Assembly (NCBI RefSeq): GCF_021026315.1
Contig: NZ_JAJNCX010000003.1
Coordinates: 310,001-374,000 of the forward strand
DNA: 64,000 nucleotides
Origin: Rhizobium sp. C4
Lineage (GTDB): Bacteria; Pseudomonadota; Alphaproteobacteria; Rhizobiales; Rhizobiaceae
Reading direction: 5' to 3'
Shown here: positions 45,138 to 60,480 of the stretch, in pieces
Layout of the letters: each line of letters starts with the position of its first letter
Position numbering within the stretch: position 1 is the first letter of the stretch
Position numbers and translations under genes: made by a program
Notes under the pieces: generated by a model
Databases searched by the model: none
What the model was told of the DNA's origin: nothing
Seen by the model: only the letters and a program-made list of their open reading frames with translations

Positions 45138-45364
45138 CTGATCTCCTTCCGGCCAACCGTTCGCGGCGACCTATATTCCTGAGCACTGACGAAACCGAAT
45201 GTGAAATCCGCTCATGTCCGAATTGCGGTTCGAAAGCGAAATCTTCGGGGCCATTCGCGGGCAGGCCTCTGCCGATTTTGGCCGCTTTGGTGATGACAAG
45301 GCGGCCACGGCTTGCTAAGTCCCGCGCACTGAAAAACAACCTTTAAAGATTGTGCGCCAAGACC

Positions 45365-47494
45365 ATGCCGGACCTTCTGCTTGAACTTCGCTCTGAGGAA
45401 ATCCCCGCCCGCATGCAGAGAAAAGCTGCCGGCGACCTGAAGAAGCTGGTGACCGATGCGCTGGTCGAGGCGGGTCTGACCTATGAGGGCGCGCGTGAAT
45501 ACTGGACGCCGCGCCGCCTGACGCTCGACGTTCGCGGCCTCACCGCCCGCTCTGCCGATACGCGCGAGGAAAAGAAGGGCCCCCGCACGGATGCGCCGGC
45601 ACAAGCCATCGAAGGCTTCCTGCGCTCGGCTGGCCTGACGTCCGTCGATCAGGCCGAAAAGGTCACCGACCCCAAGAAGGGCGAATTCTACATCGCCGTG
45701 ATCCAGAAGCCCGGCCGCGCGGCGGAAGAGATCATCGCCGATGTCATGCCCGGCATCATCCGCAATTTCCCCTGGCCCAAGTCCATGCGTTCGGGTGCGG
45801 CTTCCGCCAAGCCCGGTGCGCTGCGCTGGGTGCGACCGCTGCAATCCATCGTCTGCATGTTCGGCCCCGAACATGACGAAACGGTCGCCATCCCGTTTGA
45901 AGTCGATGGCATCGTCGCCGGCAATGTCACCTATGGCCACCGCTTCCATGCGCCAGCCGCCATCACCGTCAAGCGCTTCGACGATTATGCCGCCAGCCTC
46001 GAAAAGGCCAAGGTCGTGCTCGACGCCGAACGCCGCAGGCAGATCATCCTGCAGGACGCGCAGAACCTCGCCTTCGCCTCGGGGCTCGAACTGGTCGAGG
46101 ACGAAGGCCTGCTCGATGAAGTCTCCGGCCTTGTCGAATATCCGCATGTGCTGATGGGCACGTTCGAGGAAGAATTCCTCGAAATCCCCGCCGAAATCAT
46201 CCGCCTCACCATCAAGACGAACCAGAAGTGTTTCGTCTGCCGTCCCGCCCATTCTCAGGAGGGGGGCGGCGAGGGGCTGGCCAACCGCTTCATCCTCGTT
46301 TCCAACATCGAGGCCAAGGACGGCGGCAAGGAAATCATGCATGGCAATGGCAAGGTCGTGCGCGCCCGCCTTTCGGACGCTGCCCATTTCTACAAGCGCG
46401 ACCAGAAGGACATGCCCGACCTCGGCGACCTGAAGGAAAGCGCGGCGAAATTCGGCCTCGACCTCAAGAAGCCGCTCGACCAGCGCATGGCCAAGCTCGA
46501 CCATCTGGGCGTCACCTTCCACGCCAAGCTCGGCTCGCAGGGCGAACGCGTCACGCGCATCCGCGCGCTGGCCGCCGCACTCGCCAGGATCACCGGCGCC
46601 GATGCCGCCAAGGTCGACCGCGCCGTTGTGCTGGCGAAAGCCGACCTGCGCACCGAAGCCGTCGGCGAATTCCCTGAGCTTCAGGGCCTCATGGGCCGCA
46701 AATATGCGATCCTGCAGGGCGAAGACGCCGACGTCGCCGCCGCGATCGAAGAGCACTACAAGCCGCTCGGCCCGTCCGACAGTCTGCCGACCAACCCGGT
46801 CGCCGTGACCGTTGCGCTGGCCGACAAGCTCGACACGCTGGTCGGCTTCTGGGCGATTGACGAAAAGCCGACGGGCTCGAAGGATCCTTATGCGCTGCGA
46901 CGTGCAGCGTTGGGTGTGATCCGGGTGTTGCTGGAGAAGGGCGTGCGGTTGAAGCTCCTTTCCGTCGCCAAGGATACCGACCTCCTCTCCTTCTTCCACG
47001 ACCGCCTGAAGGTCTATCTCCGCGATCTCGGTGCGCGTCACGACATCATCGACGCCGTGCTGACGCCGGATGCGGATGATCTGCTGATGGTCGCCCGCCG
47101 CGCCGAGGCGCTGACGGCCTTCATCACCTCGGAAGACGGCAAGAACCTGCTCGCCGGCACCAAGCGCGCCACGCAGCTGCTCGCCGCCGAAGAGAAGAAG
47201 GGCACGACAATTGCAACGTCCGTGGACGATGCGATCTTCACCGAAGAGGCCGAAAAGGCGCTCTATGCGGCCGTAGCCCTTGCCCGTCAGGAAGCCGACG
47301 AGGCTGTCAAGCGCGAGGACTTCCGCGACGCCATGGCAGCCCTTTCCAAGCTCCGCGGCCCGGTCGACCGTTTCTTCACCGACGTTCTGGTCAACGACGA
47401 AAACCCAGCGATCCGCGCCAACCGGCTTGCGCTTCTGGCGCTGATCCGCGAGGCCACGGGCACGGTTGCGGACTTCTCGAAGATTTCGGGGTGA
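45365..47494 (+). CDS. glyS: glycyl-tRNA synthetase beta subunit
   Basis: 709 residues, starting [20 protein letters not shown]. The beta subunit binds and recognises tRNA(Gly). [28 protein letters not shown] and a C-terminal anticodon-binding-like domain are typical; the HD-like core is around 380-520. A weak ribosome-binding site precedes ATG 45365; in-frame codons upstream lack support. Partner glyQ is about 5.9 kb upstream on the same strand. A repeat copy begins four bases after the stop. Confidence 0.96.
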
Positions 47495-47497
47495 TCT

Positions 47498-47573
47498 CCT
47501 CTCCCCTTGTGGGAGAGGACGGAAAATCAGCATCTTAGCTTCAGCTAAGTGCTAGATTTTCCAGGTGAGGGGT
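47498..47573 (-). repeat. modular intergenic hairpin repeat, copy A
   Basis: Read on the minus strand: a C-rich end (ACCCCTCACC), then a hairpin with outer arms GGAAAATC/GATTTTCC and inner arms CTTAGC/GCTAAG, then CCTCTCCC-loop-GGGAGAGG. Same order as copies D and E. It starts directly after the glyS stop and may terminate it. Confidence 0.8.
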
Positions 47574-47604
47574 CACGATTTGGCCCCGTCGTACACCACA
47601 ATTC

Positions 47605-47680
47605 ACCCCTCACCAAGCCTGCCAAGCCAATCGGCTTACGCCTCTTGGGGCAGGCTATCCTCTCCCACAGGGGGGAGAGG
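47605..47680 (+). repeat. modular intergenic hairpin repeat, copy B
   Basis: Inverted relative to copy A across a 31-base spacer. It has CACCCCTCACC, a middle hairpin with arms AGCCTGCC/GGCAGGCT and inner GCC/GGC pairing, then CCTCTCCC/GGGAGAGG. The middle hairpin differs in sequence from copy A, but the plan is kept. Confidence 0.7.
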
Positions 47681-47705
47681 AGGGGCGGTGCGCATGCCCC
47701 ATCCG

Positions 47706-47750
47706 ATCTCCCCCCTTGCGGGGGAGATGTCCGGCAGGACAGAGGGGGGT
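47706..47750 (-). repeat. modular intergenic hairpin repeat, short copy C
   Basis: A shorter form: ACCCCCCTCT, a small GTCC-TGCC-GGAC hairpin, then ATCTCCCCC/GGGGGAGAT when read on the minus strand. It lies just before the DUF523 gene. Confidence 0.65.
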
Positions 47751-47779
47751 GCTACCGGTGCACAGCAGAGGACCAACCC

Positions 47780-48265
47780 ATGAAAATCCTCATCAGCGCC
47801 TGCCTCCACGGCGAACCCGTCCGCTATGACGGACAGGCGAAGACGCTCGATCATCCCCATGTCGCGCGCTGGCGTGAGGAAGGTCGCCTCGTCGCCATCT
47901 GTCCCGAACTTGCCGGCGGTTTCGATACGCCGCGCCTGCCGGCTGAGATCGAGCAGGGCATGAGCGGCGCGGATGTCCTCGCCGGCCGCGCCCGTGTGCT
48001 TGATAGCGCCGGAACCGATGTCACCGCCGCCTATATCGATGGTGCGAAGGCAACGCTTGATCTCGCACGCCAGACGGGTTGCGTGGCGGCCCTGCTCATC
48101 GACGGCAGCCCGTCCTGCGGGTCGCGGGCGATCTATGACGGCACGTTTTCCGGGGCGAAACATGCAGGCGAGGGTGTGACGGCAGCGCTGTTTGCCGCCG
48201 CCGGCCTGCCGGTGTTCTCGCATGAAGAGATTGAGGCACTCGCGGAATTTCTCCGCGAGGCCTGA
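47780..48265 (+). CDS. DUF523 family protein
   Basis: 161 residues. Starts MKILISACLHGEPVRYDGQ, and GSPSCGSRAIYDGTFSG is the second family motif; the Cys residues may bind a metal. The YbbK/DUF523 family has no settled function. ATG 47780 has AGAGGA upstream; longer frames run into the repeat cluster and are not coding. It abuts the MATE gene stop. Confidence 0.88.
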   Translation: MKILISACLHGEPVRYDGQAKTLDHPHVARWREEGRLVAICPELAGGFDTPRLPAEIEQGMSGADVLAGRARVLDSAGTDVTAAYIDGAKATLDLARQTGCVAALLIDGSPSCGSRAIYDGTFSGAKHAGEGVTAALFAAAGLPVFSHEEIEALAEFLREA

Positions 48266-49645
48266 TCACACAGTCGCATGAAAGATCCCAAGCCGCGCGC
48301 CCGTCTTCGCTGCTGCATTCCTGAGCGCCAGTCCGACGACGATCAGCATCATCAGATCGCCGACCGGCGAGGCAAGCCAGATACCCTTTTCGCCGACCGC
48401 GAATGGCAGCGCTAGAATGAGCGGCACGGACAGCAGATAGGGCTTGGTGAGGCTCAAGAGCCCCGCCATCCGCGCCTGGCCGAGCGCCTGGAAATAGCCG
48501 GCCAACACATTCATCGGCGCATAGATGACATAGGTTGCCATCGCATAAGGCAGGAGCCGGGCGACCTCGGCAATGACCGCCGGATTGTCGACAAACACCC
48601 GCCCGACCGTGCCGGGAAAGAGCACCAGCCCGGTCTCCAGCACGGCCGCATAGATGAGTGCGGCACCCAGCGCAAAGATCGCCGTGCGGTCGGAGCGGGC
48701 ATAGAGCCCGGCGCCGTAATTGTTGCCGGCAATGCTTTGTGCGGCAAGGTTCAGGCCGAGGAGCGGCAGGAAGGCGAAGCTCATGATCCGCACGACAATG
48801 CCATAGGCGGCGATCGTGTCGGCATAGTTCGCGCCTGCCCAGGCCTGCACGCTGGCGATGATGGCGGTGGAGGCCAGCGCAATGCCGACGAAGGAGAGCG
48901 ATGGCGGCAGGCCGAGCCGCACGATCTCGCCCCAATGCGCCATCGGCCGGAAGCCGGCGGGTGCCACGAAGGTGAGCGGCAGGCGGTCACGCAGCCGGAT
49001 CGATAGGATCACGACAAGCGCCAACGCCTGTGCTGCAATCGTGCCGGCGGCAGACCCCGCCGTGCCATAGCCCATCCGGCCGATCAGGATATAGTTGAAC
49101 AGGATGTTGAGGAGGGTCGCGACAACCGCCAGCATCGCCATCAGCCCCGCCTTGCCCTCCGAGCGCAGCGTATCGCCCTGCAGCGACAGGAAGAAGGTGA
49201 TGGGGGCGGCATAGATGGTGATCGCCATGAAGCGCCAGCCCTGTTCGGCCAGCCCCGCATCATGGTTCGCAGCCAGCAGGATCGCCCGCCAGCCGAGCAA
49301 AGCAAAGAGCGCGGCCAGCACGGCCCAGAAGCCGAGCGACAGCGTGTGCGCCGAGAGGAAGACCGATTGCGCGCGCTCCCGTTCGCCGGCGCCCAGCGCC
49401 CGGGCGACATGGCTCGCCATGCCGGCCCCCGCCATGGTGGTCAGCGCGATCATCAGCATGGAGATCGGGAAGGTGAGCGTGACGGCGGTCAGGGCATCGG
49501 CGCCGGCATAGACGCCGAGAAAGAAGGCATCGACCACGGCGAAAAGCCCGTTGACGACCATGACGAGGATCATCGGCAGGGCGGTGCGGACGAAAAGCGC
49601 GCCGATCGGCGCGTGAAGAAACGGATTGGAATTCGGGTTTTTCAT
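48266..49645 (-). CDS. MATE-family multidrug/metabolite exporter
   Basis: 459 residues and 12 membrane helices. ALPMILVMVVNGLFAVVDAF, LGAGERERAQ and NYGAGLYARS are typical of MATE cation antiporters. Substrate unknown. The ATG at 49643-49645 is in a weak ribosome-binding context. It converges with the DUF523 gene, stop to stop. Confidence 0.9.
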   Translation of the reverse strand: MKNPNSNPFLHAPIGALFVRTALPMILVMVVNGLFAVVDAFFLGVYAGADALTAVTLTFPISMLMIALTTMAGAGMASHVARALGAGERERAQSVFLSAHTLSLGFWAVLAALFALLGWRAILLAANHDAGLAEQGWRFMAITIYAAPITFFLSLQGDTLRSEGKAGLMAMLAVVATLLNILFNYILIGRMGYGTAGSAAGTIAAQALALVVILSIRLRDRLPLTFVAPAGFRPMAHWGEIVRLGLPPSLSFVGIALASTAIIASVQAWAGANYADTIAAYGIVVRIMSFAFLPLLGLNLAAQSIAGNNYGAGLYARSDRTAIFALGAALIYAAVLETGLVLFPGTVGRVFVDNPAVIAEVARLLPYAMATYVIYAPMNVLAGYFQALGQARMAGLLSLTKPYLLSVPLILALPFAVGEKGIWLASPVGDLMMLIVVGLALRNAAAKTGARLGIFHATV

Positions 49646-49814
49646 GACGGCAAGCTCGCTTTGTCACCCGGTGTCCGGTGGGGCCCGCATTGCCACAAGT
49701 CGGGTGGTTTCGAACTTGTTTGCTTCTGTCGTTCTTGCTTCACCGGATTGCGGGCGGCAGGTGCAAGAAACCTGACGTCGTGGATAGGCTGCAGCTTGTG
49801 GCTTGTCAAACGAA

Positions 49815-49838
49815 AAGGCCGCCTTGATGGGCGGCCTT
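49815..49838 (-). terminator. hairpin terminator downstream of the minus-strand secreted protein gene
   Basis: AAGGCCGCC and GGCGGCCTT pair around a short loop. The adjacent A run serves as a U tract on the minus strand. Confidence 0.75.
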
Positions 49839-49863
49839 CGGAAACCTCGTCTGTGGCGACGCG

Positions 49864-50376
49864 TCAGCGCAGGCGCAGCGTCAGGCTGTTGGGGTCGAAG
49901 GCAGCGGCTTCTGCGCCCACGGCGGCGGTGGTCGCCTCGCGGTCGATGCCGGCGAAGCTGGTGGTGCCGCGTTCGTCCGGCGGAAGCCGGGTTGCGGCCT
50001 TCATCTCGATCGTCTGCAGTTCGGCCTTGCGCGCGGCGATCTTCGCCTCATGCGCCTTCGTTTCGATGGCCGACATCTCTTCGATCAGCGGCGCTTGTGT
50101 CTTCGAAAGCGTCGTCACTGCCGAGCCGCCCATGAACTTGTCGACGCGCACCACTTCCGGCTTGCCGTCCTTGTCGATGATTTCCATCGACGTGACGCCG
50201 GCGAGTTCGGGAACCTGATAGCTCATCTTGCGAGCCGGCGCCGCCTTGCAGTCCGGGCAGGAAACCTGCACGATGCTGCCTTCCTTGACCTTGCCGGACG
50301 TCACTTTCTCGACGGATGCTGCCTGGGCAGTCACCGCTGCCGAAGCCATCAGCGTTGCGAACAACAGGGTACGCAT
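49864..50376 (-). CDS. exported protein, tentatively HPE1-like domain
   Basis: 170 residues. The signal peptide is MRTLLFATLMASAAVTAQAA. A CPDC motif (SCPDCKAAP) and SYQVPELAGVTSMEIIDKDG / VDKFMGGSAVTTLSK follow. From memory the core resembles the rhizobial 'plant virulence effector HPE1-like' annotation, but I am not certain. A charged coiled-coil-like stretch covers 100-140. GGGAG precedes ATG 50374-50376. It lies 78 bases downstream of purD on the same strand. Confidence 0.65.
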   Translation of the reverse strand: MRTLLFATLMASAAVTAQAASVEKVTSGKVKEGSIVQVSCPDCKAAPARKMSYQVPELAGVTSMEIIDKDGKPEVVRVDKFMGGSAVTTLSKTQAPLIEEMSAIETKAHEAKIAARKAELQTIEMKAATRLPPDERGTTSFAGIDREATTAAVGAEAAAFDPNSLTLRLR

Positions 50377-50454
50377 ACTCAAACTCCCATGGTTATGGGG
50401 AGACTGTAGCAAGGCAAGCTTTACAACCGGTCAGCAGAAAGAGTTAACGCTGGA

Positions 50455-51723
50455 TTAATTTTCTCGCGCCACCGCACGCCAGCCGATATCGCGGCGCATG
50501 AAGCCGTTTGGCCACTCCACCTGATCGGCCATGGCATAGGCGCGGCTCTGAGCCTCCGTGACCGTGCTGCCGAAGGCGGTGACGTTCAGCACGCGGCCGC
50601 CGGTCGCCACCAGCTGCCCGTCCTTCAGCGCCGTGCCGGCATGGAAGATGCGCTGCGTTTCGGTCGCCGCGGGAAGTGCCGCGATCGGCGTGTTCTTGTC
50701 GTAAGAGCCCGGATAGCCCTTGGAGGCCATGACGATGGTCAGCGCCGTCTCGTCGCGCCATTCTGCGGACACTTCATGTAGCCGGCCTTCGGCGGTGGCG
50801 AGAAGCAGTTCCAGCAGGTCCGATTTCAGGCGCATCATCAGCACCTGGCATTCCGGGTCGCCGAAGCGGACATTGTATTCGATGAGCTCCGGACCCTTCT
50901 CCGTGATCATCAGTCCGGCAAAGAATACACCGGAGAAGGGGTGTCCGTCCGCGGCCATGCCGCGCATGGTCGGCTCGATGATCTCCTTCATCGTCCGCTC
51001 GACGATGTCGGGCGTCATCACCGGGGCAGGGGAATAGGCGCCCATGCCACCCGTGTTCGGACCCGTGTCGCCGTCGCCGACGCGCTTGTGGTCCTGCGCG
51101 GAGGCGAGCGCCAGCAAGGTCTTGCCGTCGCAGAGGCAGAAGAAGGAGGCTTCCTCACCATCGAGATAGGCCTCGACCACGACTTCCGCCCCGGCGGCGC
51201 CGAATGCACCTTCAAAGCAGTCATCGATCGCGGCACAGGCCTCGTCCACGGTCATGGCCACGGTCACGCCCTTGCCGGCGGCAAGCCCGTCCGCCTTGAC
51301 GACGATCGGCGCGCCCTCAGCCCGCACATAGGCTTTCGCTTTCGGCGCATTGTTGAAGCGCTGATAGGCCCCGGTCGGGATATTGTACTTGGCGCAGAGG
51401 TCCTTGGTGAAGCCCTTGGAGCCTTCGAGTTGCGCGGCAGCGGAAGAGGGACCGAAGACGGCGATGCCTTCGGCGCGCAGCGCATCGGAAAGGCCGGCGA
51501 CCAGCGGCGCTTCCGGCCCGACGATGACGAAGGGGATCGATTTTTCGCTGCAGAAGGCGATGACGGCGGCGTGGTCATCGACATTCAGCGTCACGCAGGT
51601 GGCGCAGTCTGCAATGCCGGGATTGCCGGGGGCGGCGTAAAGCGTCGTCAGCTTCGGCGACTGTGCGATCTTCCATGCCAGTGCATGTTCGCGACCACCC
51701 GAACCGATCAAGAGCACGTTCAT
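50455..51723 (-). CDS. purD: phosphoribosylamine-glycine ligase
   Basis: 422 residues, ATP-grasp enzyme of purine synthesis. [62 protein letters not shown] and [11 protein letters not shown] are invariant. The start overlaps no neighbour. It is divergent from ubiA. Confidence 0.97.
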
Positions 51724-51858
51724 TGTCAGCCTCCGTTATTGCCCGTGCTGGAGCCGTTAAGGGCGGCAGCGGCTTGCGTCAAGGCGATGCCACGCTTTTC
51801 CCGGCAAACCGGGCAGCAAGTCTTGACGCCCGGCCCTGCCGCTGCCAACAAAAGCAGC

Positions 51859-52812
51859 ATGAGCAAGACCGAACAGACCGAATCCCGCGTCGCCGATGCG
51901 ACCCCCGACAACTGGGTTTACCGCTGGCTGCCGCGCGCCGCCTGGCCCTATGCGCAGCTCGCCCGCCTCGACCGGCCGATCGGCTGGCAGTTGCTGATGT
52001 GGCCGTGCTTCTGGTCTGCGGGCATGGCGGCCAATGTTACGGCTGCGGCTGGCAGCTTCAGCATCTGGCAATTCATCGCCCATCTCTTCCTGTTCTTCGT
52101 CGGTGCAGTCGTCATGCGTGGTGCCGGCTGCACCTATAATGACCTGATCGATCATGAGATCGACGCCCAGGTCGCCCGCACGCGTTCCCGTCCGCTGCCC
52201 TCGGGCCGGGCAACCCGCAAGCAGGCGAAGATCTTCATGGTCGCGCAGGCCCTGGTCGGCCTCGTCGTGCTCCTGCAGTTCAATGCGTTCTCGATTGTGC
52301 TGGGCATCGCCTCGCTCGCCGTCGTGGCGCTTTACCCCTTTGCCAAGCGCTTCACCGACTGGCCGCAGTTCTTCCTGGGCCTTGCCTTTTCCTGGGGTGC
52401 GCTGATGGGCTGGGCGGCTGTTTTCGGGACAGTCTCTCTGGCCGCTGTCATCATGTATGTCGCAGCCGTTGCCTGGACGATCGGCTATGACTCGATCTAC
52501 GCGCATCAGGACCGGGAAGACGACGCCCTGATCGGTGTTCGCTCCACCGCGCGTCTCTTCGGCGACAATACGGCCAACTGGCTGATTGCGCTTTATGGCC
52601 TGACGCTGGTGCTGCTGGCCATCGCCTATGCTCTGGCCCATCTCGGCGTTGTCGCCTATCTGGGCTTGCTGGCGGCTGGCATTGCCTTCGTCTGGCAGAT
52701 CAAGGTTCTGGATATTGACGATACGGCTCAATGCCTGAAGCTCTTCCGCTTCAATCACATTGTCGGGGCCATCATCTTTGCCGGCCTGCTTTTCGCCATT
52801 CCGCTGGCCTGA
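51859..52812 (+). CDS. ubiA: 4-hydroxybenzoate polyprenyltransferase
   Basis: 317 residues, inner-membrane prenyltransferase of ubiquinone synthesis. First acidic motif NDLIDHEID (94-102) followed by RTRSRPLPSG; second motif YDSIYAHQDREDD. Eight to nine membrane helices. It uses the polyprenyl diphosphate made by the synthase encoded at 33.0-34.0 kb. The ATG has a weak ribosome-binding site. DUF6101 lies convergent downstream, as is usual in rhizobia. Confidence 0.95.
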   Translation: MSKTEQTESRVADATPDNWVYRWLPRAAWPYAQLARLDRPIGWQLLMWPCFWSAGMAANVTAAAGSFSIWQFIAHLFLFFVGAVVMRGAGCTYNDLIDHEIDAQVARTRSRPLPSGRATRKQAKIFMVAQALVGLVVLLQFNAFSIVLGIASLAVVALYPFAKRFTDWPQFFLGLAFSWGALMGWAAVFGTVSLAAVIMYVAAVAWTIGYDSIYAHQDREDDALIGVRSTARLFGDNTANWLIALYGLTLVLLAIAYALAHLGVVAYLGLLAAGIAFVWQIKVLDIDDTAQCLKLFRFNHIVGAIIFAGLLFAIPLA

Positions 52813-52826
52813 CCGGAAAAGAAAAA

Positions 52827-52856
52827 GGGCCGACCTTCAGGGGAAAAGGCCGGCCC
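52827..52856. terminator. hairpin terminator between ubiA and DUF6101
   Basis: GGGCCGACC and GGCCGGCCC pair with one mismatch. The A-rich run on the left is the U tract for the minus-strand DUF6101 gene. Confidence 0.78.
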
Positions 52857-52898
52857 AAAGAGTGACTGGAGTCCTCTTTGAATGCTTCTTCTGGGTAT

Positions 52899-53471
52899 TT
52901 AGTTCCGGGCGATGATCTCCCGGCCTTCAATTTTCATGGTCACGCCCAGCTGGCCGATCGAGCGGCGAACGAGGAAGCGCGGGCGGCGGTCGGCAAAGTA
53001 GGAGTGCCGGCGGCGCGGTGCCGAGTTCTTGTTGGCGATGTTGGTCAGGTGTTCTTCTAGCGGACGGGCAACGCCATCGGCCTCCACCATCAGCATCGGA
53101 ATATTGTAGGCATCGGCCCAGCTGCGCCAGTCGGCGGCGATGTCGCAGAGGTCGTGGGCGACGAGAAGCGGAATGCTCAGCTCAGGATCGTCATGATGCA
53201 GTTCCAGCGTGACGGTCACGCGGCCATCGCCATGATCGATGGCGCGGGCGGCAACGCCGCGGAAGGTTCGGGCAGGCAGAGCGAAGGAAATCGGCAGGCC
53301 GCTCGAAGGAAGAAGTTTCCGCAGGACTGCGCCGCGCTCGTCGAGCGTGATCGATACATCGCCGGCATTCGTCTGACCAGAATAGGACACCTGCTGGGGC
53401 AAGTGTTTCGGATCGAGCCGAAAGGTTGCTTCAGCCCAGACCGGGCCCATTGCTACGTTGCGCATGTTCAT
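52899..53471 (-). CDS. DUF6101 family protein
   Basis: 190 residues, no membrane segment. ADWRSWADAYNIPMLMVE and RRRHSYFADRRPRFLVRRSIG are the most conserved-looking parts; the latter is strongly basic. From memory this is a rhizobial family found next to ubiA. Function unknown. ATG 53471, or the one two codons later, is the start. Confidence 0.75.
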   Translation of the reverse strand: MNMRNVAMGPVWAEATFRLDPKHLPQQVSYSGQTNAGDVSITLDERGAVLRKLLPSSGLPISFALPARTFRGVAARAIDHGDGRVTVTLELHHDDPELSIPLLVAHDLCDIAADWRSWADAYNIPMLMVEADGVARPLEEHLTNIANKNSAPRRRHSYFADRRPRFLVRRSIGQLGVTMKIEGREIIARN

Positions 53472-53738
53472 TACACCCTGTTTTCCTTGAGAGCCGGGGG
53501 CTCTTCTTTCGGGGCTTTTGCCCTCTTGGTAGGGTGAAGTTAGCGGGCCGATCTTCCGTCCGGCTTAATATTCGCGGTTAAGAAATCTTTGCATTCCCAG
53601 ATGGTTATCGAAGTCAAACCCGACACGGTTGAGGGAGTGTGAACGGGAATGCTCGGCTTGTTCATGTTGCCTTAAAGGTTTGGGCAAGGTTTCTCGTGTA
53701 GGCTTTGATCTCCGGAAATGCGCGCGCGGAAGTCGCCG

Positions 53739-55943
53739 ATGGTTTCGACCTTTCTCAGCTACGACCTGATCGCCAGGGACATGTCCAAGTCCCTGGATCG
53801 CGTTGCGTCCGAAGGTCTGACCAAGCGCGAGACCGAATATTTCCAGACCAATATCAAGAAGGTCACGACGGTCGACGGGTTCATGGGCGACTACCGCCTG
53901 TATTCCTATGCGATGAAAGCCTATGGGCTCGATGACATGACCTATGCCAAGGCCTTCATGAAGAAGGTTCTGGACAGCGATCTCACCGACCCGCAAAGCT
54001 TCGTCAATCGCCTCTCCGACCAGAAATATCGCGACTTTGCCAACGCCTTCCAGTTCGGCAAGGCCACCGCGACGGTCCAGACGACCGCCCAGAAGGACTC
54101 CACCGTCCAGGCCTACAAGGATCAGCTGGCCGCCGAAGAAGCCGCCGTCTCCACGGACACCGCCTACTACAAGAAGGCGATCACCTCCGTGAAGAACGTC
54201 GATGAATTCATGCAGAACAGCAAGCTCTACACCTACGCAATGAAGGCGACGGGCCTCGATCCGGATACCTATTCCAAGGACTTCATCAAGAAGGTCCTGA
54301 CCAGCGACATCAACAGCAGCACCAGCTACGTCAATAGCCTGCCGACCGACACGGCAGCACGCTATCTTTTGAAGCAGAAGGCGCTCGACCTGCGCAACGC
54401 GTTCAATTTCAATACGAGCGGCGGTCTCGACAGCGGCGTCACGGCCCAGACGACTGCGCAGGCGAACAAGACGACCGAAACCTATGTCACCACGGTGCCG
54501 AGCCATGTGACACCCATCGCGGCGCAGATGAACAACACCTATCTGGCCGATCAGATGGCGAAGGTCACCAAGGTCAGCGATATTACCAGCAACGACCGGC
54601 TCTTCTCGCTGGTCAAGACGGCGCTCGGCCTCTCCTCCACGATGCTGGCGACAACCTTCCAGAATATCGTCAGCAGCGACACGTCGACGTCCAACAATTA
54701 TGCCAACCAGCAGGGCGGGGCGACCTGGACTGCCATCGCCAAGATGTTCAACTTCGATACCAATGGCGATGTGAAGGCCGGCGGCTCGGCGATGACCAGC
54801 GACAACCTGTCGAAGTTGCAGAACCGCTATCTGGGCAATTACGGCAAGGACGACGATGCCAACGATGCGACCATCTATAATTACTATGGCACCCACATCG
54901 GCCAGGTGAAGAAGGTCGACGACCTCATCAACAACTCCGCCCTATACAGTTTCGCGCTGCATTCCGTGGGCTTGGCCGCGCAGGACGAGTCGCAGGCCAA
55001 GATCAGGATGGTTCTGGAAAGCGACGTCAACGATCCCAAGAGCTACGTGAACCAGCTGTCCGACAAGCGCTATCTGGCGCTCGCCAATGAGTATAATTTC
55101 GACAAGGACGGCAAGATCGGCGCACCGCGTCTTGCCCAGTCGCAGGCCGAAATCACGCTGATGGCGCAGAACTACGTCAAGATGCAGACGCGCTATGGCA
55201 ACACGGCCGCCAAGGCGGGCGCCACCGACGACATGAACTACTATACCAAGACGATCCAGGGGATCGACTCGGTCGACAAGCTTCTCTCCGACAGCAAGCT
55301 GGTCAAGGTCGTGCTCGGCTCCTACGGGTTCGACCCAGCGAAGGTGACGAAGGACTTTCTCAAGAAGGTCTTCTCCTCGGATCTGAATGATCCCAAGAGT
55401 TTCGCCAATGCGCAGACCGACCAGCGCTGGGCGCAGATGGCCGGTGCGTTCAATTTCGACAACAAGACAGGCAAGATCGCGACGGTCGATCAGGCCGGCG
55501 CGATGGATCGCCGCGCCCGTATCGCCACCGTCGACAACTATTACCAGCAGACGCTGGAAACCGAAGCGGGCGATGAGAATGCCGGCACGCGCCTCGCGCT
55601 CTATTTCCAGCGCATGGCCCCGACCATCACCTCGGCCTATGATATCCTGGCCGACCAGGCGCTGCTGCAGTTCTTCAAGACCAGCAACAACCTGCCGGAC
55701 GGCTTCTCGACCCTGCCGATCGATACCCAGGCCGCCAAGGTCAAGTCGGTGATGAACCTCAAGGACCTGTCCGACCCCGACAAGGTCAAGGACATGGTCA
55801 AGAAGTTCACCGCTCTCTTCGATATCCAGAACAACACCATCAGCGGCGGCGCTTCGGCGCTTTCCATCCTGTCGCCCGGCAGCGGTGGTGCCTCGCTCAG
55901 CGCCGACACGCTTTTCACCCTCTCCCAGCTCAAGCGCGGATAA
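53739..55943 (+). CDS. multi-repeat DUF1217 protein
   Basis: 734 residues. Six degenerate units of about 110-120 residues, each opening with V-x2-VD-x-(L/F)-(M/L)-x-(N/D)-x2-L(Y/F)-x7-GL. The clearest are at about 42, 150, 276, 389 and 508; a sixth is near 631. Several units continue into KKVL-x-SD-(L/I)-x-DP-x-S(F/Y)-x-N and an AFNF/FNF(D) motif. DUF1217 proteins are known from rhizobial flagellar clusters; this one is outside any flagellar locus here. GGAAG precedes ATG 53739. Surface or structural role is inference. Confidence 0.8.
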   Translation: MVSTFLSYDLIARDMSKSLDRVASEGLTKRETEYFQTNIKKVTTVDGFMGDYRLYSYAMKAYGLDDMTYAKAFMKKVLDSDLTDPQSFVNRLSDQKYRDFANAFQFGKATATVQTTAQKDSTVQAYKDQLAAEEAAVSTDTAYYKKAITSVKNVDEFMQNSKLYTYAMKATGLDPDTYSKDFIKKVLTSDINSSTSYVNSLPTDTAARYLLKQKALDLRNAFNFNTSGGLDSGVTAQTTAQANKTTETYVTTVPSHVTPIAAQMNNTYLADQMAKVTKVSDITSNDRLFSLVKTALGLSSTMLATTFQNIVSSDTSTSNNYANQQGGATWTAIAKMFNFDTNGDVKAGGSAMTSDNLSKLQNRYLGNYGKDDDANDATIYNYYGTHIGQVKKVDDLINNSALYSFALHSVGLAAQDESQAKIRMVLESDVNDPKSYVNQLSDKRYLALANEYNFDKDGKIGAPRLAQSQAEITLMAQNYVKMQTRYGNTAAKAGATDDMNYYTKTIQGIDSVDKLLSDSKLVKVVLGSYGFDPAKVTKDFLKKVFSSDLNDPKSFANAQTDQRWAQMAGAFNFDNKTGKIATVDQAGAMDRRARIATVDNYYQQTLETEAGDENAGTRLALYFQRMAPTITSAYDILADQALLQFFKTSNNLPDGFSTLPIDTQAAKVKSVMNLKDLSDPDKVKDMVKKFTALFDIQNNTISGGASALSILSPGSGGASLSADTLFTLSQLKRG

Positions 55944-55992
55944 TCGAACGTCCGCGCTGCGGTGCATGTCGCCCGGTTGCTTTCCGTCGGGA

Positions 55993-56020
55993 GTCGTTAT
56001 ATCCAGTGAGACATAACGAC
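55993..56020 (+). promoter_or_regulatory. ModE operator upstream of modA
   Basis: GTCGTTAT (55993-56000) and ATAACGAC (56013-56020) are perfect inverted arms 12 bases apart, matching the ModE consensus CGTTATAT-N-ATAACG. The left arm overlaps a -10-like TTATAT. It lies 13 bases before modA. Mo-loaded ModE would block transcription. Confidence 0.85.
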
Positions 56021-56033
56021 TTGGGAGAACTTC

Positions 56034-56816
56034 ATGCATCGTCGCACATTCGCCACCGGCCTTCTGGCTGCAACCGCTTTCGCACTCTCCGTCTTCACCG
56101 CCGCGGCTGCCAATGCCGGCGAGGTCAAGGTCTTTGCCGCCGCGAGCCTCAAGAACGCGCTCGACGGGATCGCCAAGGACTGGAAGGCTGAAACGGGCAA
56201 TGACGTCGTTCTGACCTATGCCGCAAGCTCGGCGCTGGCCAAGCAGGTCGAGGCCGGCGCGCCCGCCGATCTCTTCATCTCCGCCGACCTCAAGTGGATG
56301 GACTATCTGGCCAAGGCCGACCAGATCAAAAAGGACAGCCGCGAAAACCTACTCGGCAACGCGCTGGTTCTGGTTGGTCCGAAGGATGCCGCCAAGACCT
56401 ACGAGATCGCCAAGGGCTTCGACCTTGCCGGAGCGCTTGGCGGCGGTCGTCTCGCTGTTGGCGCTGTCGAAAGCGTCCCGGCCGGCATCTATGCCAAGCA
56501 GGCTCTGACGAGCCTCGGCGCATGGGATGGCGTGAAGGACAAGCTGGCGGAGTCCGAAAATGTCCGCGCGGCCCTGCTTCTCGTCTCGCGCGGCGAAGCC
56601 CCGCTCGGCATCGTCTACATGACCGACAGCAAGGCGGACGCCGGCGTCAAGGTTGTGGGCACCTTCCCGGAAAACTCGCACGAGCCGATCATCTATCCGG
56701 TTGCCGAGCTGAAAAACGCGCCGGCACTTGCCGCCGAGTTCCAGAAATATCTTCGCTCGAAGAAGGCGCAAGCCGGCTTCACAGGGCAGGGCTTTACGGT
56801 ATTGTCCGCGAAGTGA
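56034..56816 (+). CDS. modA: molybdate ABC transporter, periplasmic binding protein
   Basis: 260 residues. A signal peptide (1-28) with a Tat-like MHRRTF start precedes the ModA fold: KVFAAASLKNAL, SSALAKQVEAGAPADLFISAD and GIVYMTDS. Binds molybdate/tungstate and delivers it to ModB. First gene of modABC, controlled by the operator upstream. GGGAG precedes the ATG. Confidence 0.96.
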   Translation: MHRRTFATGLLAATAFALSVFTAAAANAGEVKVFAAASLKNALDGIAKDWKAETGNDVVLTYAASSALAKQVEAGAPADLFISADLKWMDYLAKADQIKKDSRENLLGNALVLVGPKDAAKTYEIAKGFDLAGALGGGRLAVGAVESVPAGIYAKQALTSLGAWDGVKDKLAESENVRAALLLVSRGEAPLGIVYMTDSKADAGVKVVGTFPENSHEPIIYPVAELKNAPALAAEFQKYLRSKKAQAGFTGQGFTVLSAK

Positions 56817-56837
56817 TGGCGGACAAGCGGCAGCGGA

Positions 56838-57536
56838 ATGATACTTTCTGAAGAAGACTGGGTGGCGCTGGCGATCAGCCTCAAGGTGGCCGTCGTCGCA
56901 AGCGCCGCCAGCCTGCCCTTCGGCATTGCGGTGGCCTGGCTGCTCGCGCGCAAGTCCTTTCCGGGCAAGAGCGTGCTCAACGGTCTGGTCCACCTGCCGC
57001 TCATCCTGCCGCCGGTGGTGACGGGCTATATCCTGCTCATCCTCTTCGGCCGCAAGGGTGCGATCGGCAGTGTACTGGATCAGGTCTTCGGCATTGTCCT
57101 CTCCTTCCGCTGGACAGGGGCGGCGCTCGCCGCCGCCGTCATGGGCTTTCCGCTGATGGTCCGCGCCATCCGCCTTTCCATAGAAAGCCTCGACAAGGGA
57201 CTGGAAGCCGCCGCCTCGACGCTCGGGGCTGGCCGTTTCAATGTCTTCCGCACCATCACCCTGCCGCTGATCATGCCGGGCATCGTGACGGGAACCATCC
57301 TCTCCTTCGCCAAGGCCATGGGCGAATTCGGCGCCACCATCACCTTCGTCTCCGCCATTCCCGGCGAGACGAAGACGCTGGCCGCCGCGATTTACAGCTA
57401 CACGCAGGTGCCGGGCGGCGATGAAGGCGCGATGCGGCTCACGCTGATTTCCGTCGTCGTGTCGCTGGCAGCACTGCTTGCCTCCGAACTACTGGCCCGC
57501 CGGGTTCAGACCCGCACGGAGGGTCGCGATGTTTGA
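56838..57536 (+). CDS. modB: molybdate ABC transporter permease
   Basis: 232 residues, five to six membrane helices. The EAA loop that docks ModC is in LEAAASTLGAGRFNVFRTIT. Start ATG 56838 lies 21 bases after modA. The 3' end overlaps modC by eight bases. Confidence 0.96.
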   Translation: MILSEEDWVALAISLKVAVVASAASLPFGIAVAWLLARKSFPGKSVLNGLVHLPLILPPVVTGYILLILFGRKGAIGSVLDQVFGIVLSFRWTGAALAAAVMGFPLMVRAIRLSIESLDKGLEAAASTLGAGRFNVFRTITLPLIMPGIVTGTILSFAKAMGEFGATITFVSAIPGETKTLAAAIYSYTQVPGGDEGAMRLTLISVVVSLAALLASELLARRVQTRTEGRDV

Positions 57537-58629
57537 GATCGACATCCGCCACGCGCAGGGCGACTTTAAGCTCGAAGCCGCCTTCACCGCCGGCGACGGC
57601 CTGACGGCGCTGGTCGGTCCCTCCGGCTCCGGCAAGACAACGCTTGCGAACATCGCCGCCGGCCTCATCCGCCCGGAGGAGGGCCGCGTTACCTTCAACG
57701 GCGAGACATGGTTCGACAGCGAACGAACGATATTCCTCCCCGCCGACCGCCGCCGCATCGGCTATGTCTTTCAGGAAGGCCGGCTCTTCCCGCACATGAC
57801 GGTGCGGCAGAACCTCAACTACGCCCGCCATTTCCGCCCGACGCGGACGAATGAAGCGGCGGATGCCCGCCTGATCGAGCTGCTCGGCATCGGCCATCTG
57901 CTGGAGCGCCGCCCGGCTGGGCTTTCCGGCGGCGAGAAAAGCCGCGTCGCCATCGGCCGCGCGCTCTTCTCCGCCCCGTCGCTCCTCATCATGGACGAGC
58001 CGCTCTCGGCGCTTGATCCGGCCCGCAAGGCTGAAATCCTGCCGCATCTAGAATATGTTCGCGATGAGATCGGCATTCCGATCCTCTATGTCAGCCATGC
58101 GATGGAAGAGGTCGCGCGGCTTGCCAATCGCGTCGTGTCGGTTGCCGGCGGCCGCGTGGTGGCCGAGGGCGAGCCGGGCGCGGTTCTGGGCGGCGCGCGT
58201 CCGATGCCGGACGACATGGAGCCCGCGACCTTCATCAGCGCCCGCATTAGCCACCATCTGGAAAGCGAGGGGCTGACCGTTGCCAACAGCCGGGCAGGGC
58301 GCATCTTTTTGAAACGCAGCGCCGCCGAGCCCGGCGACTGGGTCCGGGTCTATATCTCCGCGCAGGATATCATTCTTGGCATCGGTGAGCCCGGGAACCT
58401 TTCCGCCCTCAATCGTCTCGACGGGCGCATTCTGGGGCTTGCCGAGCGCGGCGGCAGCGTCTGGGTGACGGTTGATTGCTCCGGCGAGGTCGTGCTGGCG
58501 CAGGTCACGCGCCATTCGGCGGCGCGCATGGGGCTGGCGGAAGGCCAGCCGGTCAGCCTGTTGTTCAAGTCGGTGTCGATCGACACGCAGGGTCTGTTCA
58601 GGCGTCAGGCGCCTGATGCCTTGCCGTAG
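57529..58629 (+). CDS. modC: molybdate ABC transporter ATPase
   Basis: 366 residues. Walker A GPSGSGKTT, signature LSGGEKSR, Walker B LLIMDEPLSALD, then a C-terminal Mop/TOBE-type domain (about 290-360) that may sense bound molybdate. ATG 57529 overlaps modB. The last 25 bases overlap, tail to tail, the minus-strand MFS gene. Confidence 0.95.
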   Translation: MFEIDIRHAQGDFKLEAAFTAGDGLTALVGPSGSGKTTLANIAAGLIRPEEGRVTFNGETWFDSERTIFLPADRRRIGYVFQEGRLFPHMTVRQNLNYARHFRPTRTNEAADARLIELLGIGHLLERRPAGLSGGEKSRVAIGRALFSAPSLLIMDEPLSALDPARKAEILPHLEYVRDEIGIPILYVSHAMEEVARLANRVVSVAGGRVVAEGEPGAVLGGARPMPDDMEPATFISARISHHLESEGLTVANSRAGRIFLKRSAAEPGDWVRVYISAQDIILGIGEPGNLSALNRLDGRILGLAERGGSVWVTVDCSGEVVLAQVTRHSAARMGLAEGQPVSLLFKSVSIDTQGLFRRQAPDALP

Positions 58630-59783
58630 GCCCAGAGGAGCACGATACCGATGACCATGGTGATGGCCGCCATGATCATGCCGATATCATAGCTGCCCGT
58701 CATATCCGCAATCCGGCCCACAACGGCGGGCGCGACAATCTGCGCCACGCCATAGGATAGCGTCAGCCGCGCCATGGCGCCGGAAGGATTGTCGCTGTTG
58801 CGTTTTCCCGCCAGCGCGAGCGTCAGCGCCACGATCCCCATGAAGGTTCCGCCGAAGAGCAGCGCCCCGCCAATGGCCGCAAGCGCGCTATGGCTCACGA
58901 GCGGCAGAATGATGCCGACGATCTGCAAGGCATAGGCCAGGATCAGGGTCGGCACATCACCGATCCGCCGCGCCAGCCGATCCCAGGCGAGCGTCGCCGG
59001 GATGGCGGCCACACCGACAACGATCCAGATGAAGGGCCCAAGATGCGAAAGCTGCGGCACTTTGGCCGCCGCCGCGACGACAAATGTGGCGCTGACGACG
59101 AAGCCGACGCCGGCGCAGAAATAGGAAAGATTGAGCAGCCATGCGCCGGGATGCGGAACCTTGGCAGCACCCGCCGCACGGGTCGTGGTCGCACCATCCG
59201 GCGCGGGCATCCAGAACCATGCCGGGATGAGCAGAGCCAGCGTGACCGCGCCGAACACATGCCATTGTCCCGCCCAGTCGAGCGACCCGTTCGTTGCCAT
59301 CACCAGCGCGCCGGACAGGATAATACCGACCGCGAGCCCGATGAAATGCAGCCCCAGCTCCGGCCGCCGTCCGTGGCGGACGAGAAAGGCCAGAACCATG
59401 CCCGAAGCGAGCAGCATGCCCGAGGCCCCGCCGACGCCGGCAATGTAGCGAAGCAGGAGCCATGCCCAGGTTTGCGTTGTCAGCCCCATCCCGGCCGTGC
59501 CGATGACGCCGGCGATCAGGCCCACCCGGTAGACAAGAAAGCGCTTCCGTGCATCGGAAATCGTCGAGGCCATGAGCGCCCCGGTCATGTAGCCGGCATA
59601 GTTGACGGTCGCGAGCAGCCCGCCGACGAAGGGCGACATGCCCGTCTGCGCCTGCATCAACGGCAGCATCGGCGTATAGGCAAAGCGCGCAATCCCCACC
59701 GTCAACAACATCGCCGCCATCCCGGCCGCCATGACCTGCCAGGGCTTGATGGTTTCGGATTGGGGCAGTGCGATATTCGACAT
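58605..59783 (-). CDS. MFS transporter, YbfB/YjiJ family
   Basis: 392 residues and 12 membrane helices. The N-terminal GIARFAYTPMLPLM and YAGYMTGAL motifs are diagnostic of the YbfB family. Substrate unknown. The ATG lies 127 bases downstream (on the plus strand upstream) of repeat copy D. Its 3' end overlaps modC, so the two transcripts are antisense there. Confidence 0.88.
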   Translation of the reverse strand: MSNIALPQSETIKPWQVMAAGMAAMLLTVGIARFAYTPMLPLMQAQTGMSPFVGGLLATVNYAGYMTGALMASTISDARKRFLVYRVGLIAGVIGTAGMGLTTQTWAWLLLRYIAGVGGASGMLLASGMVLAFLVRHGRRPELGLHFIGLAVGIILSGALVMATNGSLDWAGQWHVFGAVTLALLIPAWFWMPAPDGATTTRAAGAAKVPHPGAWLLNLSYFCAGVGFVVSATFVVAAAAKVPQLSHLGPFIWIVVGVAAIPATLAWDRLARRIGDVPTLILAYALQIVGIILPLVSHSALAAIGGALLFGGTFMGIVALTLALAGKRNSDNPSGAMARLTLSYGVAQIVAPAVVGRIADMTGSYDIGMIMAAITMVIGIVLLWAYGKASGA

Positions 59784-59910
59784 GGGGGTGTCCGGCTTTG
59801 CTACATGATAATGTCAGCAAGACCTAACACGTTCCCTGTGTCGGGATTATTGAACTTTTGGACAGAAACTTGTGCCCGGGGGCGCTGGAGAGTGCTGTTG
59901 GCGGTAGTGG

Positions 59911-59988
59911 ACCCCCTCTCTTGCGATTTCTAACACTTAGCTAAAGCTAAGATGTTGAAATCGCTTTCTCCCCCACCGAGGGGGAGAT
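59911..59988 (+). repeat. modular intergenic hairpin repeat, copy D
   Basis: ACCCCCTCTCTTGC, a hairpin with outer arms GCGATTTC/GAAATCGC and inner arms CTTAGC/GCTAAG, then TCTCCCCC/GGGGGAGA. It forms an inverted pair with copy E. Confidence 0.85.
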
Positions 59989-60017
59989 TGGAAAACGCGG
60001 GCACGGCATACTCCCCC

Positions 60018-60096
60018 TCTCCCCCCTGGTGGGGGAGAACGCAAAATCACGGTCTTAGGCGAAGCCTAAGTCGTAGATTTTGCAAGAGAGGGGGGT
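60018..60096 (-). repeat. modular intergenic hairpin repeat, copy E
   Basis: Inverted copy of D across a 29-base spacer: outer arms GCAAAATC/GATTTTGC, inner arms CTTAGGC/GCCTAAG, and TCTCCCCC/GGGGGAGA. It lies 10 bases from the modE stop and may end that transcript. Confidence 0.85.
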
Positions 60097-60105
60097 AGTT
60101 CCGCC

Positions 60106-60480
60106 TTACTCCGCCTCATCCTTCTTCACCACAGGCTCCCCAAGCGCCGCTTCGATCCACTCGAGATCGCCGCCCATGGCCTTTTCCGCTCGCTTCTCCA
60201 TGCTGCGAAACCGCGCCAGCAATTCCTCGCCAAAGGGCGTCAGCGTCGCCCCGCCGCCCTGCTTGCCGCCCTGGGCCTTCAGCACGACCGGCTCGCGGAA
60301 CATGCCGTTCAGCTCGTCGATCAGCAGCCACGCCCGGCGATAGGACATGTTCATCGCAGCCCCCGCCGAGCGGATCGAGCCGTGGGTCTTGATCAGTTCC
60401 ATCAGCTGCGCCTTGCCCGGCCCCAGCGGATGGTCGCCCGGCATGGAAAGACGGAGTTTGAAGCCGATCTTGTCGCTCAT
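60106..60480 (-). CDS. modE: ModE-family molybdate regulator, DNA-binding domain only
   Basis: 124 residues. The ModE winged helix is clear: GSIRSAGAAMNMSYRRAWLL and the QGGKQGGGATLTPFGEELL wing. The C-terminal molybdate-binding (TOBE/Mop) domains of full-length ModE are absent. Short ModE proteins of this type exist in rhizobia. It probably represses modABC through the operator at 55993. The start overlaps the FAD oxidase stop by four bases, so both are co-transcribed. Confidence 0.88.
   Translation of the reverse strand: MSDKIGFKLRLSMPGDHPLGPGKAQLMELIKTHGSIRSAGAAMNMSYRRAWLLIDELNGMFREPVVLKAQGGKQGGGATLTPFGEELLARFRSMEKRAEKAMGGDLEWIEAALGEPVVKKDEAE

Follow-up and report, generated by a model that had tools for sequence, protein, structure and literature searches.

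Mosaic palindromic repeats of Rhizobium sp. C4 and its relatives arranged as inverted pairs with unlike arms

Background

Among the palindromic repeats of rhizobia, the Rhizobium-specific intergenic mosaic elements (RIMEs), the Sm repeats and the A, B and C motifs of Sinorhizobium meliloti were reportedly described by Osteras in 1995, and in Escherichia coli the bacterial interspersed mosaic elements (BIMEs) combine repetitive extragenic palindromic (REP) units of unlike types. The inverted terminal repeat (ITR) of adeno-associated virus is a palindrome whose two internal arms are unlike and occur in either of two orders, called flip and flop. Here, a repeat built of three modules (A, B and C), present in five copies at two intergenic loci of Rhizobium sp. 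C4, was compared with such systems and with its own relatives. The loci lie in a stretch of 64,000 nt (contig NZ_JAJNCX010000003.1, positions 310,001-374,000, forward strand), hereafter the window, to which all coordinates refer. A preliminary description had taken the copies for a REP/RIME-type element; they proved to be a dispersed rhizobial mosaic palindrome with compensatory arm changes, and a link to REP elements and their REP-associated tyrosine transposases (RAYTs) was not supported.

RIMEs, Sm repeats and the A, B and C motifs are named in two studies (PMC2573895, PMC2245857), the first of which treats them as annotated S. meliloti repeats of unknown function. The elements studied here are likewise rhizobial, intergenic and palindromic, as compared by description and not by alignment to a published consensus, but their long form (long-B, see below) was unmatched at E<=1e-6 in S. 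glycinis and two Ensifer genomes. In the rhizobial repeat literature that was covered, which takes in little of its older part, neither unlike arms nor a cross-shaped geometry nor flips were described. BIMEs are characterised by regularly spaced palindromic units in alternating orientation (PMC2817692). Alternating orientation and conserved spacing were also found here; by description, the present units differ in being longer, in having no Y1_Tnp domain found in the genus and in showing flips at orthologous sites. REP doublets forming hairpins (REPINs) are inverted doublets with a less conserved spacer, predicted to fold in single-stranded DNA (ssDNA) or mRNA (PMC3116915). Inverted doublets of fixed spacing, mostly intergenic (1/96 units lay inside a called gene), occur here as well, but with no RAYT found, with unlike arms and with a four-armed fold instead of a long hairpin under DNA energies. 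The Bru-RS of Brucella, 103-105 bp long in the literature and 118 bp in the study that cites it (PMC2267715), is by description a dispersed palindromic element in the same order; tested Ochrobactrum and Falsochrobactrum genomes gave no match to our covariance model at E<=1e-6. The ITR is a works-like analogy only, with no relation claimed: the present element is non-terminal and has no known Rep-type nuclease.

Results

Structure of the unit

All five copies were recovered as matches to a covariance model (R1) built from 32 copies, at the positions first proposed for them. The features of the two loci are as follows.

47496-47574, minus strand: copy 1, A-B-C, long-B half of a class II pair (R1 match of 98.7 bits); B cassette with outer arm GGAAAATC/GATTTTCC and second stem AGCA/TGCT
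47575-47603: class II spacer between copies 1 and 2, A modules inside; 30 bases by unit boundaries
47604-47682, plus strand: copy 2, paired with copy 1 (R1 36.5 bits); A-B-C, its B cassette being the large 'G' one, AGCCTGCC...GGCAGGCT
47705-47751, minus strand: copy 3, short-B form (A, GTCCTGCCGGAC, C; R1 25.7 bits)
59911-59989, plus strand: copy 4, A-B-C, left half of a class I pair (R1 100.8 bits); B cassette with outer arm GCGATTTC/GAAATCGC and second stem AACA/TGTT
59990-60015: class I spacer of 26 bp, C modules inside
60016-60095, minus strand: copy 5, A-B-C, right half of the class I pair (R1 84.2 bits); B cassette with outer arm GCAAAATC/GATTTTGC and second stem ACGA
59910-60097: whole class I unit, predicted four-armed cross with A/A' as base, B arm, C/C' arm with spacer, and B' arm
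47490-47685: whole class II unit, predicted four-armed cross with C/C' as base, B arm, A/A' arm with spacer, and G arm

The window thus holds one class I unit (59911-60095), one class II unit (47496-47682) and one short-B copy. Against the single plan first ascribed to all five copies, those at 47604 and 47705 carry other B cassettes, a large and a short one. Two inverted copies were present at each locus, as had been noticed, and the inverted pair, beyond the single copy, proved to be the unit.

Module A reads CCCC(C)TC, followed by TCTT or ACCT. Module B consists of an 8-pair outer arm, an unpaired T, 4 pairs and an inner stem (CTTAGC-loop-GCTAAG; its 3' side carries an unpaired base, usually A), followed by the partners. 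Module C is CTCCCCC or CCTCTCCC, a short loop and the complement. For comparison within the genus, 171 long-B copies were used (51 from genome G001, 40 from the own genome, 38 from G004, 29 from G005 and 13 from G002), one of 172 hidden Markov model matches having been dropped at <50 bits; they were fetched at part of the places matched by BLAST or the model, and the elements of G003 (31 matches) were left out. Outer arms were fully paired, G.T allowed, in 161/171 copies, with five main forms (57, 50, 29, 12 and 6 copies), and the unpaired T was invariant in all 171. Further copies came from nine genomes of seven other genera (40 stretches fetched, matches <35 bits dropped); here 82/91 outer arms were fully paired and differed in sequence, for example GCAATTTC/GAAATTGC, GTGATTTC/GAAATCAC and GGATTTTC/GAAAATCC.

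The arm pairs given in the preliminary description were present and complementary, and compensatory changes were confirmed: among 31 distinct copies, 96.3% of cells were paired (96.6% and 95.8% in the two helices), with 107 two-sided changes against 1-17 in controls with slid partners. One of five covariation measures, further pair types, gave no excess (21 against 22.7 in shuffles). The covariation is real; the selection on structure read from it is one of several possible sources, since cassette replacement or palindrome-correcting template switching would give the same pattern.

A neighbour within 70 bp was found for 157/171 long-B copies, 14 having none. Class I pairs join two long-B copies with the C modules inside (41 neighbour pairs, gap of 25-26 bp in 36/41), class II pairs join a G and a long-B copy with the A modules inside (37 pairs in five genomes), and class III pairs join two long-B copies with the A modules inside (19 pairs). 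Units were about 185 bp long with fixed spacing. A gap limit of 45 bp left 40 class I, 37 class II and 19 class III pairs, the 96 units analysed; one L+ L- pair with a 67 bp gap and nine others (3 G+L-, 2 G+L+, 1 L+L+, 2 s-s+ and 1 G+s-) were not counted as units.

In the predicted class I fold, A pairs with A' and C with C' around the spacer, and B and B' fold on themselves; in class II, C/C' forms the base and A/A' the spacer-bearing arm. The composite fold at 59910-60097 reached a z of -12.7 (RNA) or -12.3 (DNA), and that at 47490-47685 a z of -11.2 (RNA). Together with 92 model matches in the own genome, from a genome-wide check, these folds, with z down to -12.7, show more than chance palindromes. 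The cross was compared with a long hairpin on the natural sequences, as the best fold without B-B' pairs against the best without B self-pairs; with DNA energies the cross was better in 40/40 class I, 37/37 class II and 17/19 class III units. In RNA folds, pairing of both A/A' (>=5 bases) and C/C' (>=6) occurred in 40/40 class I units; A/A' and C/C' paired in 35/37 and 37/37 class II and in 19/19 and 16/19 class III units. The TCTCCCC-loop-GGGGAGA stretch, first taken for a hairpin of each copy, is present, but in RNA folds its preferred partner is the matching stretch of the other copy: both sides formed C hairpins of their own in 0/40 class I, 0/37 class II and 3/19 class III units.

Two further observations concern unit surroundings. 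Arrays of several units within 1-3 kb, with copies shared between units, were seen in G001 (stretches L225 and L227) and G004 (L245). Conserved tails were noted by eye beside units of classes II and III (on the left in L235, on the right in L232, L244 and L283, among others): an AACCyrGCCgCACC-like tail adjoins the C module of GGAAAATC copies, and a GCGGCGGAGTAGG-like tail the G copy, in several units. By eye, these tails look like further modules of the mosaic.

Unlike arms within a unit

No long-B pair in 14 genomes had identical outer B arms (0/84). In shuffles, whose expectation ignores shared ancestry, 14.6 identical pairs were expected for class I (0/40 observed; never <4 in 20000 shuffles) and 4.3 for class III (0/19; P=0.005). 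After orthologues were collapsed, the counts were 0/23 against 8.0 expected for class I (P=0.0001) and 0/17 against 4.2 for class III (P=0.007). Despite their other arm sequences, the other genera also gave 0/25 identical pairs. Class II is unlike by definition, yet no two G copies were neighbours within 300 bp. Three outer-base differences separated the arms in 37/59 long-B pairs of the genus, and the remainder of B adds further differences.

Orthologous loci

The 96 units of five genomes corresponded to 59 slots, of which 20 were common to at least two genomes. More than one class was seen in 8 slots, and at least 3 of these involve arrays with copies shared between units. At locus 2, a class I unit stands in the own genome and in G004, and G001, G002 and G005 have no element; the element-free G005 site retains AGAGAGGGGG and a C run (L161 ~1065-1131), which, judged from the sequence, would be like the deletion scar of an outer module. 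The slot behind gene 45350-47494 holds a class II unit here, a class I unit in G001, G002, G004 and G005, the short-B form in Mycoplana (L134), and about 20-45 bases in Shinella/Rhizobium relatives (L096, L105, L109, L098, L101 and L102).

At orthologous class I units (10 slots), the order of the two B arms was opposite in 15/27 comparisons and the same in 12, so that both orders occurred across species in 7/10 slots. Junctions agreed by eye within a few bases in slots a and b (four species each), c and e, and because of this agreement one old insertion, present in both orders, is taken to occupy each of these slots. Slots a, b and g combine a flipped B with an unturned spacer. In c and e the spacer turned together with B, clearly so in two of the four comparisons for e; it turned alone in d and was indeterminate in f and i. 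All observed states could be produced by a pair of nested inversions, one bounded by A and A' and the other by C and C'. Small hairpin-linked inversions have been reported, mostly in plastids.

Arms were also exchanged in place, in keeping with the exchangeable central cassette of the preliminary description: arms differ or swap place at orthologous sites. One slot showed four arm combinations in four species: one side carried G or GCAAAATC, the opposite side GGAAAATC or GCGATTTC. The orthology of this slot rests mainly on the left flank, because the right flank is partly a second repeat, D (see below). In slot a, GATG/CATC stands in G001 where G005 has AACA/TGTT, with the outer arm unchanged. 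In situ stem changes numbered 15 two-sided Watson-Crick changes and 9 one-sided losses (671 pairs in 37 same-type arm comparisons, some of which share one event). Same-type arms, exchanged ones being excluded, were 92.2% identical (44 arms; long-B 93.5%, G 86.2%), spacers 61.1% (19 comparisons) and adjoining 60 bp flanks 68.7%. Since arm identity exceeds that of spacers and flanks, the arms are kept, either by selection or by homogenisation among dispersed copies.

Distribution

A covariance-model search of the own genome and the Rhizobiaceae, suggested at the outset, revealed a dispersed family. A DNA search with copy 4 gave 34 BLAST matches in the own genome, and R1 gave 92 at E<=1e-3, a lower bound with 150/1052 first-look candidates scored. 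Of these, 42 exceeded 60 bits; a group of 10 that includes the large 'G' partners scored 34-42 bits, and the other 40, for the most part short forms 43-51 bp long, scored 28-33 bits. All six genomes of the genus, the own one included, matched R1 (31 to 115 matches each). Family-wide, matches at E<=1e-6 were found in at least 77/247 genomes and at least 47/109 genera; with stricter filters, at most 19 candidates were scored per genome and G003 was missed despite its 31 matches in the genus search, and these counts are therefore lower bounds. Among named genomes, 14/32 matched, including Rhizobium skierniewicense (17 matches), Peteryoungia aggregata (21), Phyllobacterium bourgognense (18), Neorhizobium galegae (8) and Jiella pacifica (6). 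No match at E<=1e-6 was found in the one Sinorhizobium, two Ensifer, two Shinella and one Agrobacterium genome tested, nor in the tested R. leguminosarum, Ochrobactrum, Falsochrobactrum, Bartonella and Bosea genomes.

The short-B form had another distribution. Forms like copy 3 were present in 178 plasmid records, including Sinorhizobium (68) and Rhizobium (62) and also Shinella plasmids, and copy 3 (47705-47751) was 94-96% identical to S. meliloti plasmids over ~51 bases; it is probably a long-known rhizobial repeat. The plasmid search with the class I unit gave a single record, at 72%. At gathering score, no Rfam family matched the window or stretches L034, L006, L008 and L285; seven sub-threshold matches, rejected as candidates, were to microRNA and Xist models far under their thresholds.

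Discussion

Proposed maintenance of the element

We tentatively regard the copies as non-autonomous, RIME/BIME-like mosaic palindromic elements whose unit is an inverted A-B-C pair of about 185 bp, and not as REPINs; this, with the mechanism that follows, may well be the case. As ssDNA, for instance during replication, a pair would extrude as a four-armed cross in which A/A' and C/C' supply the long-range stems and the side arms B and B' fold on themselves. Equal B arms would instead give an almost perfect palindrome of ~185 bp around a short spacer. Cells cut or delete such palindromes, an activity known of SbcCD, and pairs with unlike arms are proposed to persist because like-armed ones would be lost in this way. 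Flips of the spacer (C-C') and of the whole interior (A-A') would arise from recombination between the nested inverted repeats or from a template switch there, and recombination with dispersed copies would replace single arms. Behind stop codons, so symmetric an element would give adjoining transcripts a strong 3' structure that tolerates flips. The full proposal, an element maintained as a DNA four-way junction with unlike arms, repeated in-place flips and arm exchange, possibly with flipping within populations and tuning of 3' ends, is offered as a speculation that we would call unlikely.

Several observations weigh against this explanation. With RNA energies the cross won in only 23/40 class I and 6/19 class III units (class II 37/37), and the unconstrained RNA fold had at least one B-B' pair in 26/40 class I and 13/19 class III units, in some of them of just two bases (e.g. 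G001_C4a:52437). The 59 long-B pairs of the genus include 9 whose arms differ at one outer base of 8 and 4 at two; fully orthogonal arms within a pair, a version also considered, were rejected as too strong given these pairs and the B-B' pairing in RNA. Short-form copies stand as like-with-like inverted neighbours at wider spacing (4/5 short-short pairs inverted), so that the test of the unlike-arm rule extends to the long and G forms alone. Part of the rule could stem from a founder effect, and the high arm identity applies to arms of unchanged type. In slots f, g and i the homology of the junctions is unclear, and a separate insertion there could pass for a flip. Some flips could be assembly errors because most genomes are drafts of 20-50 contigs; G001, with 6 contigs, is least suspect. 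Neither a target duplication nor a mobilising enzyme was found. Read in the mRNA sense, the B stems of 103 copies had 25 G.U against 13 A.C (P=0.07), which gives no firm strand signal.

Possible transcript-level selection

The elements could act at the RNA level only, as a 3'-end stem array (a stabiliser or a site of processing or termination) under selection in the transcript, the DNA geometry being incidental; this is possible, though we consider it doubtful. The genomic setting bears on it. Locus 1 lies between the end of gene 45350-47494 and a next gene with a probable ATG start at 47781 that is common to relatives, and locus 2 between two minus-strand genes (60106-60480 and 58605-59783); we take the flanking genes to resemble glyS, a DUF523 gene, a modE-type regulator and a major facilitator superfamily (MFS) transporter. 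A purpose-written hexamer gene caller placed 84/96 units (11 unplaced, besides the one in a called gene): 54 in tandem, 29 in convergent and 1 in divergent regions. The background of tandem/convergent/divergent regions was 487/118/153 for intergenic regions >=20 bp and 126/27/58 for those >=180 bp. Divergent sites were in deficit (Fisher P=7e-7 or 9e-9) and convergent sites in excess (P=6e-5 or 5e-5), orthologues not being collapsed in either test. The median distance was 19 bp to a 3' end (112 ends) and 107 bp to a 5' end (56), and 45/54 tandem units were closer to the upstream stop. This avoidance of divergent regions and proximity to 3' ends, the strong RNA folds at both window units and the mRNA-sense surplus of G.U, which is not significant, are all consistent with a role in transcripts, and REP elements of Bradyrhizobium are located in 3'-UTRs (untranslated regions; PMC5082802).

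Other evidence argues against it. On the given strand the B stems held only 24 G.T and 58 A.C among 3135 cells, unlike the neighbouring repeat D with its many G-U variants; 28 of the 58 A.C cells come from a single lineage whose second stem has A.C at its fourth pair. A terminator scan found no terminator-like site at either window unit, its one weak site (47405-47421) lying within the upstream gene, and TTTT within 12 bases outside the unit occurred in just 2/192 outward flanks, so that the hairpin with a T run expected of an intrinsic terminator was not found. Nor do RNA energies favour the cross in class III. The scarcity of G.T, the advantage of the cross under DNA energies and the fact that flips are tolerated favour a constraint at the DNA level. 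Placement behind stop codons favours an effect on the transcript, and both could be true.

Possible neutral palindromes

The units could also be neutral, with unlike arms descending from a few founder pairs and stems kept without selection by template switching that corrects quasi-palindromes, which we find rather doubtful. Few arm types per genus and changes in blocks fit this explanation (outer positions 5 and 6 carry AT in 94 and 95, and TA in 75 and 75, of 171 copies), as do the flips, which point to template switching, and the pairs that differ by one outer base. Yet arms changed singly at one slot in four species and no identical pair resulted, unlike outer arms of other sequences recur in seven other genera, and the unpaired T in 171/171 copies and the conserved same-type arms also speak against it.

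Possible recurrent insertion and mobility

Recurrent, independent insertion of miniature inverted-repeat transposable element (MITE)-like units into the same intergenic slots, with the apparent flips as separate insertions, is improbable. More than one class in eight slots (with the shared-copy arrays in at least three), the unclear junctions in slots f, g and i, and the clean empty sites would suit it. However, junctions agree in slots a, b, c and e, and in a and b the spacers line up without inversion even though B is flipped. There is also no target duplication: a direct repeat >=5 occurred in 0/96 units, and the mean of 1.07, against 0.98 shuffled, was reached or exceeded in 78/300 shuffles. 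Lastly, a REPIN mobilised by a RAYT (Y1) transposase, an enzyme that the preliminary description proposed to look for, is highly improbable, since for all the likeness of the inverted doublets with less conserved spacers to published REPINs (PMC3116915), Y1_Tnp (PF01797) was found in 0/6 genus genomes, the own one included, and by the same search in 5/14 control genomes, which leaves it tenable only if the enzyme has been lost or has diverged strongly.

Two neighbouring repeats were noted in passing. One end of a multicopy insertion sequence was present at 10 places of the own genome. All 8 junctions read abut a C-type hairpin, and its apparent other end adjoins a C hairpin at 3/3 contig ends read (C18, C27 and C34). 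Because a C hairpin stood at each of these 8 + 3 junctions, the insertion sequence seems to target the repeat.

Own contigs C5, C8, C9, C18, C23, C28, C33 and C35: insertion-sequence end 1, junction read (C1 and C15 not read)
L329, L331, L333, L335-L338, L027, L029, L035 and L054: insertion-sequence stretches

A remnant of the insertion sequence gave a weak DDE_Tnp_1 match (E=0.18, under the cut-off). All copies of ISRm22 of S. meliloti are reported to lie inside REP elements, at the palindrome axis (PMC1525189). Repeat D is noncoding, 440-480 bp long, with 11 matches in the own genome (e.g. L034:1578-2060, C47:258386-258868), 6/11 of these places lying within 50 bp of a long-B copy. It was matched in 5/297 family genomes, all of this genus, with none in G003 (two candidates scored per genome). 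One copy has 3-5 stops per frame, and no Rfam family matched; over 20 copies, 122 consensus pairs were found, 23 with two-sided changes, and G-U variants were many. D is a candidate for a new large structured RNA. The plasmid search gave no record for the insertion-sequence end or for D.

Conclusions

The family is a clear case of repeats that keep their shape while their parts are exchanged. Its natural variation separates features that are kept (non-identical arms, paired modules and the position behind stop codons) from those that are free (arm order, spacer and arm type), and it offers fixed sites at which flips can be tallied from species to species. Rhizobial repeats of unknown function are thereby turned into testable claims on palindrome stability, template switching at the replication fork and mRNA 3' ends.

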